From Ancrocorticia populi (lineage in GTDB: Bacteria; Actinomycetota; Actinomycetes; Actinomycetales; Actinomycetaceae): DNA of 64,000 nt. Numbering within the stretch: position 1 is the stretch's first letter; each line of letters starts with the position of its first letter. A model generated the notes under the pieces. It was given only the letters and a program-made list of their open reading frames with translations. It did not search any database and had not been told where the DNA came from. Positions 26,674-53,541 of this stretch are shown in pieces. The translations under genes and the position numbers were made by a program. The stretch covers positions 310,001 to 374,000 of the forward strand of contig NZ_QETB01000001.1 in the NCBI RefSeq assembly GCF_003123745.1, read 5' to 3'.

Positions 26674-26863
26674 GGGCACGTCGTCGTCGGAAAAACTCCT
26701 CAACCACATTTTTCACGCAAACCCGGGTTTTGGATTAGCGGAAGGGTCCAAGGTTTGAAATTGGCATCCCACGTACTGGGATAACTCGTATTATCTGGTT
26801 ACGCGCCCAAGCGCGGGGGAGGGGACAACACACACGCCTCCCATGAATGGAAGGGATGTACCC

Positions 26864-35460: not shown

Positions 35461-35540
35461 TTGATGCACTCCCGGTTTTATTTCCCGAGATTTGACGCAG
35501 ACCCGGTGTGTTTTTTGGAGGGTTGACGCAATCTCGGGTT
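35461..35540. repeat. Three copies of the TTGACGCA...CYCGGG motif at an exact 31-bp period
   Basis: TTGATGCACTCCCGG starts at 35461, TTGACGCAGACCCGG at 35492, and TTGACGCAATCTCGGG at 35523. The spacing is exactly 31 bp each time; between the motifs the sequence is T-rich and diverged. The array fills the gap between the converging ispF and MFS genes, and its last copy overlaps the stop codon of the latter. The same motif recurs elsewhere in the window (see findings). Confidence 0.75.
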
Positions 35541-43118: not shown

Positions 43119-43180
43119 AGGATAAACCGTAGCCGAGAGCGAGCAATTCTGCATGGCCCGTGCCAAAATCGCTGCCAATA

Positions 43181-43272
43181 AGGGACTCCCCACGCACCCG
43201 CCAGAGCTCTCATACCCTTGCTGCCTTCCGGCCCTGGGGGAGTTTTGAAAGATGGCGCCACGTGGGGAGCCG
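43181..43272 (-). ncRNA. ffs: Signal recognition particle RNA (4.5S)
   Basis: On the minus strand the conserved apical loop is present as GGGCCGGAAGGCAGCAAGGG, the Ffh M-domain binding site with its GGAA tetraloop and symmetric internal loop. The ends pair as CTCCCCACG (5') with CGTGGGGAG (3'), and the total is about 92 nt, the small bacterial SRP RNA. It binds Ffh to target membrane proteins. Exact ends are approximate. It is transcribed toward the LytR_C gene, which starts 63 bp downstream. Confidence 0.9.
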
Positions 43273-43389
43273 AGTGCTAGTCTACGGCACGCTGGGACAG
43301 ATTCGCCAACTCGTGGATTTCTGTGCCGGGTACTGTCCGCTATTCGCGCATCGTGTGGCAATGCGAGAGACGATCATTAGGGTGGATGT

Positions 43390-44026: not shown

Positions 44027-44114
44027 GGAGGATTCGCCTAGTGGCCTATGGCGCACGCTTGGAAAGCGTGTTGGGTGCAAGCCCTCGGGGGTTCGAATCC
44101 CCCATCCTCCGCCA
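44027..44114 (+). tRNA. tRNA-Ser (anticodon GGA)
   Basis: GGAGGAT pairs with ATCCTCC in the acceptor stem. The anticodon loop is CTTGGAAAG with GGA, a long class II variable arm follows, the T-loop is GTTCGAATC, and an encoded CCA ends at 44114. A terminator hairpin follows directly. Confidence 0.95.
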
Positions 44115-52104: not shown

Positions 52105-52146
52105 CTGACGCACACTGGGGTTTCAAACCCGAGAATTGACGCTGTA
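52105..52146. repeat. Two copies of the 31-bp-period TGACGCA motif at the IS110 left flank
   Basis: CTGACGCACACTGGGG starts at 52105 and TTGACGCTGTA at 52136, again 31 bp apart as in the array at 35461. TTTCAAACCCGAG lies between them. The second copy breaks off where the IS110-type element appears to begin. The right flank of the element carries ATCAAACCCGGG (53508), compatible with the missing half of the motif. Confidence 0.55.
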
Positions 52147-52441
52147 AGTATGGGGTTGGCTGGTCTGGGACTGGCTGGCAGGGTTGGTGGTGGCTGTTCT
52201 TGGGGCTGGGCGTGACTCTAGTTGACGCTGTACCCACTCTTGGTGGTGTCTGGGGATTGATATGTCCGTCTAGTACTCGGGGGTGGCCGCTACCTGCCCG
52301 GTCCACGATGGTGATTTGATTAGAAGCTTGTCCGCCCCGTGGGGTGTGACTTTTTACAGCATTATCCCGCCGTGAAACTTTCCCGGACTGGTAACGGCCT
52401 ACGGTCATTCTTTATCAGTTGATAGTGAAAGGATCACCGCA
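52147..52441 (+). ncRNA. Candidate bridge-RNA region of the IS110 element
   Basis: 295 bp of non-coding sequence upstream of the transposase, G/T-rich on this strand with several possible stems (for example CCGCCCCGTGGGGTG around 52333). It repeats TTGACGCTGTA of the left flank at 52222-52232 and contains ACTCGGG at about 52274, both reminiscent of the target motif TTGACGCAnnCYCGGG. IS110 bridge RNAs carry guide loops matching target and donor. RNA limits are not determined. Confidence 0.4.
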
Positions 52442-53494
52442 ATGTCTATCGTTGCAGATCATCACGGGTTTGTCATAGGCGTGGACTGCCACGCCAGAAA
52501 CCATGTCTATAGTATCGCCGCCGCTAGGGGCGACATTCTAGCCACTCGCCAGTTCCCGACCACAAGGGCGGGGATGGGTCGGGCCATCTCGTGGGTCGGC
52601 AAACACACCGGTGGGGACATGTCGGCATTGTTCGCGATTGAGGGAACCCGCACCTATGGGGCCAACCTGTCTCGGCATGTTGGCCGGGCTGGCTACAAGC
52701 GAGTCGAGGCCCCGTGGACAGCCACGTCCGCCAAGGGTAAGAGCGATGAGATTGATGCCGGCAAGATCGCACGAGCGACCTTGGCCTGTCAGATCGACCA
52801 GTTGAGGGATCCGCGCGCGGACGGGATCCGCGGGGCCCTCGCCATTTTGCTGGCGTCTCGGAACCAGATGCAAAAGGCCAAGACCAGTGCGAAAAACCAG
52901 TTGACCGCGCTGATGCGTTTCCACGATTTGGGTATCGATGTACGCAAGGCCGTGAGCATGAAACAGGTCAAGACGATCGCTACCTGGCAGGCTCGCGATA
53001 CTGGGGATATTGCCGTGTTCTACGCGATAAGGGAGGCGATCGACCTAGCGCAGACGGTTCTTCAGTTGGAGAAAAATGCAGCTACCAACCGGGCGGAGAT
53101 TCTGGCGTTGGTTCGCCAGTGCGAAGCCGGGGTGTTGCTCAAAGAGAAGGGGTATGGTCCGATCTCGGTGGCCCAGATCTTCGTGTCTTTCTCCCATGTT
53201 GGCCGGATCGATTCTGAGGCTAAGTTTGCCGCCTTGGCCGGGGTTAACCCGGTCCCGGCTTCTTCCGGCAACACCGTCCGTCACCGCCTGAACAGGCGCG
53301 GAGATAGGCAGCTTAATCGTGCCCTGCACACGATCGCGCTGACGAGAATGAGGCAGGACGAGGAAACCGAAGCCTATGTCGCTCGCCGCCGCCTTGAGGG
53401 TAAAACCGACCGTGAAATCCGCCGCTGCCTCAAACGCTACCTCGCCCGCCACGCCTACCGGACACTCAACCAAACCCAACCCGCCCAGACTTGA
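52442..53494 (+). CDS. IS110-family transposase (RuvC-like DEDD recombinase)
   Basis: 350 aa. The N-terminal RuvC-like DEDD domain begins VIGVDCHARNHVYSIA, followed by FAIEGTRTYGANLS and KSDEIDAGKIARA, which supply the acidic residues. The C-terminal Tnp domain with the serine motif reads FAALAGVNPVPASSGNTVRH. Both halves are complete. These enzymes insert DNA with a bridge RNA choosing the target. GTGAAAGGA precedes the ATG. Confidence 0.92.
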   Translation: MSIVADHHGFVIGVDCHARNHVYSIAAARGDILATRQFPTTRAGMGRAISWVGKHTGGDMSALFAIEGTRTYGANLSRHVGRAGYKRVEAPWTATSAKGKSDEIDAGKIARATLACQIDQLRDPRADGIRGALAILLASRNQMQKAKTSAKNQLTALMRFHDLGIDVRKAVSMKQVKTIATWQARDTGDIAVFYAIREAIDLAQTVLQLEKNAATNRAEILALVRQCEAGVLLKEKGYGPISVAQIFVSFSHVGRIDSEAKFAALAGVNPVPASSGNTVRHRLNRRGDRQLNRALHTIALTRMRQDEETEAYVARRRLEGKTDREIRRCLKRYLARHAYRTLNQTQPAQT

Positions 53495-53541
53495 CACACA
53501 TAGAAGCATCAAACCCGGGCGAGGAAGGCGGCGTGTGAGGT

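Follow-up and report, generated by a model that had tools for sequence, protein, structure and literature searches.

Some IS110-family insertion sequences are known to enter dispersed repeats of their own hosts. IS621 inserts into REP repeats, and a 2006 survey in which IS110 was the most represented family includes ISPa11, ISPpu9, ISPpu10 and ISRm19 (PMC1525189); the repeat-targeting cases described in the parts of these sources used here come from E. coli, Pseudomonas, Sinorhizobium and Neisseria (PMC11208160, PMC1525189). In IS621 and related orthologues the CT core is described as kept at both ends, with an almost invariant T (PMC11208158), and insertion of ISEc21 reportedly leaves no duplication of target bases (PMC11187229).

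Here we describe an IS110-family element from Ancrocorticia populi, located in a 64,000-nucleotide stretch of the genome (hereafter the window). As described for IS621 of E. coli, an RNA would be encoded in the left non-coding end, the left and right target guides (LTG, RTG) and the left and right donor guides (LDG, RDG) follow in the same order, and G80-A81-U82 and the handshake guides fall at corresponding places; in both elements the target is a dispersed genomic repeat (REP in IS621) and the circle junction forms a promoter, which for our element is a prediction (PMC11208160, PMC11208158). Unlike IS621, the element uses another repeat and its transposase is only distantly alike (phmmer E 1.6e-6), and whereas IS621 is described with CT cores at both ends, targets of the window type mostly read C followed by another base that is read by the guide. 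ISEc21/seekRNA, compared here through its published description, shares the IS110 type, an upstream non-coding RNA, the lack of target duplication, a transposase in the 345-385 aa cluster and a natural redirection seen in a relative, but its target is a conserved site within genes of the IS3 family rather than an intergenic repeat (PMC11187229). ISPa11, ISPpu9, ISPpu10 and ISRm19 likewise lie in repeats of their hosts; those repeats are REP (PMC1525189), whereas the window repeat has neither better-than-swapped pairing of its arms nor a Y1_Tnp match in the host genome. Taken together, we consider it very probable (about 0.93) that the element transposes by bridge-RNA-guided recombination with the host repeat as its target. 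The mechanism would follow IS621 by analogy, and what can be read from the DNA itself is the guides, the predicted structure and the target in three copies. The element thus described is ordinary in kind and has good sequence support; its repeat and guide words seem to be new as far as searched.

The coordinates of the element and its parts are collected in Table 1. The transposase matches PF01548 (2e-13) and PF02371 (1.1e-18), both over cut-off, which is the domain composition of the IS110 family, and it scores 155.6 bits against NCBIfam NF033542, 'IS110 family RNA-guided transposase' (cut-off 140). Motif assignment places D15, E67, D102, D105 and serine 274/275 in the catalytic-residue motifs of IS621. 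At E 0.001, the only solved relatives found by sequence were ISCro4 and IS621; the ISCro4 alignment, of which the first piece is weak, covers the catalytic residues except D15. Three copies of the element were found in the host genome, with transposases 100, 91 and 88% identical. Every copy starts with TGTAAGTAT and ends with AGAAGCAT. The left border is TTGACGC in each case and the right border either CAAACCC or CAATCCC, and the DNA further out differs between copies; all three insertions thus fall at one and the same base of the repeat. A target duplication is absent, as the junctions of the three copies have a single C in common with the repeat, and no inverted repeats were seen by eye between the ends CTGTAAG and AGAAGCAT. 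If the element were circularised, TTGACA of the right end would stand 17 bp ahead of AAGTAT in the left end (52146-52151), a promoter-like arrangement. The preliminary description had the left flank ending in the second TTGACGC of a 31-bp array, which agrees with the units observed (CTGACGC at 52105 and TTGACGC at 52136, spaced by 31 bp). It also had the right flank resuming within the motif, which is correct for CAAACCCGGG; the AT of its quoted ATCAAACCCGGG, however, belongs to the element, since all three copies end in AGAAGCAT, and the right flank therefore starts two bases later. Copies at sites lacking the motif, which would have spoken against its proposal, were not encountered: all three host-genome copies lie in the repeat.

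Table 1. Features of the IS110-family element, its predicted bridge RNA and its flanks (window positions)
Feature	Position	Strand	Remarks
IS110-family insertion sequence	52143..53509	+	1367 bp; same ends in three copies with differing outer DNA
Left flank	52105..52142	+	Two host-repeat units, 31-bp period; terminal TTGACGC is target positions 2-8
Right flank CAAACCCGGG	53510..53519	+	Second half of repeat unit
Core base	C at 52142 and C at 53510		Common to both junctions
Transposase/recombinase	52442..53494	+	350 aa; domains DEDD_Tnp_IS110 and Transposase_20
Element right end	53491..53509	+	Holds -35-like TTGACA
Bridge RNA core, target-binding to donor-binding loop	52207..52358	+	Covariance-model match
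Left target guide (LTG) GTTGACGC	52221..52228	+	Positions 1-8, of which 2-8 equal the left flank
Right target guide (RTG) GGGATTG	52253..52259	+	Pairs with CAATCCC; own flank CAAACCC is one mismatch
Target-loop handshake guide (A,U)	52260..52261	+	Pairs with donor positions 7 and 6 (T, A), right end
Left donor guide (LDG) AGAAGC	52322..52327	+	Equals AGAAGC in element right end (TAGAAGCAT)
Right donor guide (RDG) TTACAG	52354..52359	+	Pairs with left-end CTGTAA
Donor-loop handshake guide (C,A)	52360..52361	+	C pairs with target position 7 (G); A unpaired with position 6 (C)
Predicted target of window bridge RNA			TTGACGCAATCCCGGG
Two commonest repeat forms			TTGACGCAAACCCGG and TTGACGCAATCCCGG

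The repeat that receives the element has the approximate consensus CCGAGA(T/C)-TTGACGCA-A(T/A)C(C/T)CGGG. At up to one mismatch, TTGACGCANNCYCGGGT has 31 matches in the 2.65-Mb host genome and its reversed control none, and the shorter pattern TTGACGCANNCNCGG has 88 matches, 35 of them exact (control 21). Exact TTGACGCANNCCCGGG occurs 18 times in the host genome and zero or one time per genome in 297 others of the same family and order, none of them from the host genus (six of the 297 have one); the dispersed repeat is private to the host among these 298 genomes. A looser scan with three mismatches in the window alone gave 23 repeat matches versus 35 expected, which is below chance, and the case for the repeat therefore rests on the stricter genome-wide counts. 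In the window, further copies are seen at 26712 and 62931 and as a three-unit array with a 31-bp period at 35461-35539. The repeat tends to occur outside long open frames: no spanning frame of at least 150 codons was found at 30 of 58 repeat places, which include near-duplicates from overlapping loci, compared with 42 of 400 random positions in the window (median spanning frames of 144 versus 375 codons). By hand count, TTGACGCA is followed by AACCC in 9 and by ATCCC in 7 of the 35 exact copies. The abundance of such copies gives some ground for supposing that homologous recombination between repeats, or chance, spread the element instead of guided insertion; three copies with the same ends at the same repeat base, in differing surroundings, make this explanation scarcely credible.

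Single repeat units such as CCCGAGAT-TTGACGCA-ATCTCGGG suggested a conserved hairpin, and some can indeed pair near-perfectly, but a control in which arms were swapped between units speaks against it: the mean number of paired arm positions over 33 units is 5.48 of 10, versus 5.73 after swapping. An origin of the repeat from RAYT activity is likewise unsupported, as a search for Y1_Tnp (PF01797, E 0.001) gave no match in the host genome (the control was positive in 5 of 14 genomes). Because the arms pair no better than swapped ones and no Y1_Tnp match was found, the likeness of the repeat to REP is limited to its being short and dispersed.

The upstream non-coding end of the element had been proposed to contain a bridge RNA, and this is borne out by a covariance model for which only sequences of 14 relatives from other genomes were used, none from the host genome. 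Within the window it matches a single site at E values up to 10, the plus-strand core listed in Table 1 (97.1 bits, E 5.8e-20), and in the host genome, where the search scored 150 of 866 first-look candidates, it matches three sites, each just upstream of one copy of the element. The relatives' upstream ends share a layout. A stem that ends in GTGAC leads into two variable words, the second with a final G, on either side of an inner stretch, and GTCC then closes the stem; AGAAG lies further on, followed by a GTCC...GTGAC hairpin and, as a rule, by TTACAG or TCACAG. Across the 14 relatives the two stems are 95.4% paired, and 11 of the 17 pairs vary on both sides. None of 500 shuffles reached this pairing or the number of both-side changes, and 10 of 500 reached the number of pair types; sliding the stem partner by one base lowered pairing to 41% or 33%. 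With the host genome included (22 sequences), the stems are paired at 144 of 154 and 82 of 88 positions, exceeding all 5,000 arm shuffles. We infer from these comparisons that a structured RNA is encoded in the upstream non-coding end. In an energy fold of the window RNA alone, LTG pairs partly with RTG (mean pairing probabilities 0.76 and 0.64), and the open guide loop therefore rests on the relatives and on IS621 rather than on the fold. Searching the whole window with Rfam at gathering score returned SRP RNA and tRNA only, and Rfam may hold no bridge-RNA family; the hits are a small SRP RNA at 43178-43274 on the minus strand and a tRNA gene at 44027-44111 on the plus strand.

Guide positions were placed with the IS621 numbering as given in parts of its descriptions (PMC11208158, PMC11208160). 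So placed, the target-binding loop is predicted to read both halves of the repeat, TTGACGC and CAATCCC, and the donor-binding loop the element's own ends. Two of the sequence matches noted in the preliminary description fared differently under this alignment. The 11-bp flank copy TTGACGCTGTA at 52222 is present, and in the alignment with relatives 52222-52228 belongs to LTG, as would be expected of a guide loop there; because the match consists of seven target nucleotides plus the first bases of the element, only TTGACGC is meaningful, TGTA being the element's own left end. ACTCGGG near 52274 was mistaken for a guide, as 52275-52281 pairs with 52199-52204 in a predicted stem, the actual RTG being 52253-52259. 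Among the host-genome copies, the right guides read CAATCCC in two and CAAACCC in one, and these two guide alleles would read the two commonest forms of the repeat. The window copy has a guide for CAATCCC and a flank of CAAACCC, and matches its own flanks at 6 of 7 (left) and 5 of 6 (right) positions; the other two copies match at 7 of 7 and 6 of 6. With a perfect own-flank fit in only two of three copies, the numbers are too few to call co-variation between guide and repeat.

We then turn to relatives in other genomes for the relation between guides and flanks. At 1e-60, 22 of the other 297 genomes gave a match, and together with the three of the host genome there were 43 places. We took 42 (one in G288 was left out), excluded L036, L053 and L055 as short loci or partial matches, leaving 39, and dropped L043 (right end not found) and L057 (left end not found), which left 37 rows with 21 distinct guide pairs. 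The relatives are distant, at 43-55% identity. Over the 21 pairs, left guides agree with their own flanks at 120 of 147 positions (20,000 flank shuffles: mean 45, maximum 81) and right guides at 97 of 126 (mean 38, maximum 65). LDG agrees with the element's own right end at 125 of 126 positions (shuffle maximum 121). Handshake base 82 complements donor base 6 in all 21 (shuffle mean 8.5, maximum 17), through U-A in 11, C-G in 7 and A-T in 3. In the donor loop, base 166 forms a Watson-Crick pair with target base 7 in 18 of 21 (shuffle maximum 16) and a G-U pair in the other 3, and base 167 pairs with target base 6 in 14 of 21, a count reached by 4 of 20,000 shuffles; the latter pair is missing in the three host-genome copies. 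With the host genome left out (18 pairs), the left and right totals were never reached by shuffles and the donor-loop handshake counts were reached by 4 and 1. As flank shuffles treat related elements as independent, they were rerun on 13 elements, each standing for one cluster drawn by eye: the left (71 of 91) and right (58 of 78) totals were reached by none of 20,000 shuffles, and two handshake counts of 13 of 13 each (G-U allowed at base 166) by 1 and 10. Left guides fit poorly at the fixed register in L035 (1/7), L037 (1/7), L040 (3/7) and L042 (0/7); one base of slack raises these to 5/7, 4/7, 6/7 and 1/7, respectively. Altogether, the predicted target-loop guides are complementary to both strands of the target, and the predicted donor-loop guides to the element's own ends.

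These tests bear on a different explanation, namely that a protein recognises the repeat and picks the target, with the RNA-like match being an accident or the remnant of a neighbouring repeat unit inside the element. The repeat does form arrays, and a copied unit within the left end is conceivable. Against it, relatives at 43-55% identity carry other guide words at the same RNA positions, matching their own, different flanks; both halves of the repeat are matched, on opposite strands; and LDG and the handshake bases track the element ends as well. The guide-flank shuffle tests, for 21 pairs as well as for 13 clusters, oppose protein recognition strongly, and we regard it as highly improbable. 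Under RNA-guided insertion of the IS621 kind, the joined ends of an excised circle would form a promoter from which the 5' non-coding end is transcribed into the bridge RNA. Its target-binding loop would pair with both strands of the host repeat (TTGACGCAAACCCGG, TTGACGCAATCCCGG) and its donor-binding loop with the junction of the element's ends. Strand exchange by the recombinase would take place at the C of TTGACGC or beside it, as the junctions and the example of IS621 suggest. The host repeat would thus offer the element landing sites scattered over the genome, many of them outside genes. The prediction that an RNA-guided element targets its genome's own intergenic repeat is thus in line with guides that fit both repeat halves and with all three copies lying in the repeat. 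If so, the element is a clean natural case in which an RNA-guided transposon is tuned to the repeat of its host, with guide variants reading the commonest repeat variants.

The junctions point to a difference from IS621 in the core dinucleotide. The left junction reads CT in 20 of the 21 distinct elements (the sole exception, L039, has AT), and the right junction reads C followed by target position 9, which is A in 14, C in 5, G in 1 and T in 1; CT on both sides, the trait of the IS621 branch, is not seen as a rule, the right junction being CT in 1 of 21. RTG reads position 9 in 20 of 21. Empty sites are TTGACGCA for the host repeat, split TTGACG-CA, and ACTACCTGACGG in G285, split ACTA-CC-TGACGG, and their comparison with filled sites indicates that the T of the left junction comes from the element and the base of the right junction from the target. 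It would follow that usually just one base, the C, is common to both junctions; because the left-end T and right-end C are partly fixed by the search anchors TGTRA and TAGRAGNNT-C, we treat this core difference as a lead. One reading is the same guided insertion with a one-base core (CT in the donor, C plus any base in the target), strand cutting or mismatch resolution lying one base off that of IS621. Empty versus filled sites and the guide-read, variable position 9 favour it, and the preset anchors weigh against it; we hold it as possible, somewhat short of even odds. Either the cut would fall between positions 8 and 9, or mismatches would be resolved in one direction, and the junctions by themselves do not separate a shifted cut from biased mismatch repair. 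Such a core refines the explanation by guided insertion and does not oppose it. The broader proposal, that a branch of IS110 recombines with a one-base core while RTG reads the variable target base after the C, is more tentative still; if true, strand exchange would occur one base from that of IS621 and the choice of target would be freed from a fixed T. The published record may already imply something of the kind, since the ISEc21 report, in the part used here, describes insertion without duplication of target bases (PMC11187229).

The 21 natural guide pairs with their flanks, the host genome included, should help to work out the rules of bridge-RNA recognition, and they include targets without the T that IS621 prefers. 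The flanks of L035, L041, L047, L051, L056, L065-L069 and L075 resemble, by eye, what we take to be ISL3- and IS3/IS481-like transposase genes, and the guides of some relatives may be tuned to other insertion sequences. A scan of genome contigs for named relatives yielded three loci only, all in Arthrobacter (L062-L064, 40-47% identity). In plasmids, where 1831 records gave any match, the majority of records are enterobacterial; the best 15 are actinobacterial, with identities of at most 51.7% among the matches listed. G285, a genome of the same order, carries a 48-bp palindrome in some 70 copies (half-matches at up to two mismatches: 70 forward, 69 reverse). The palindrome hosts two IS110 relatives with different guides at two different points: six copies of one relative lie at the edge of the palindrome (L058, L070-L074) and a single copy of the other at its centre (L038).
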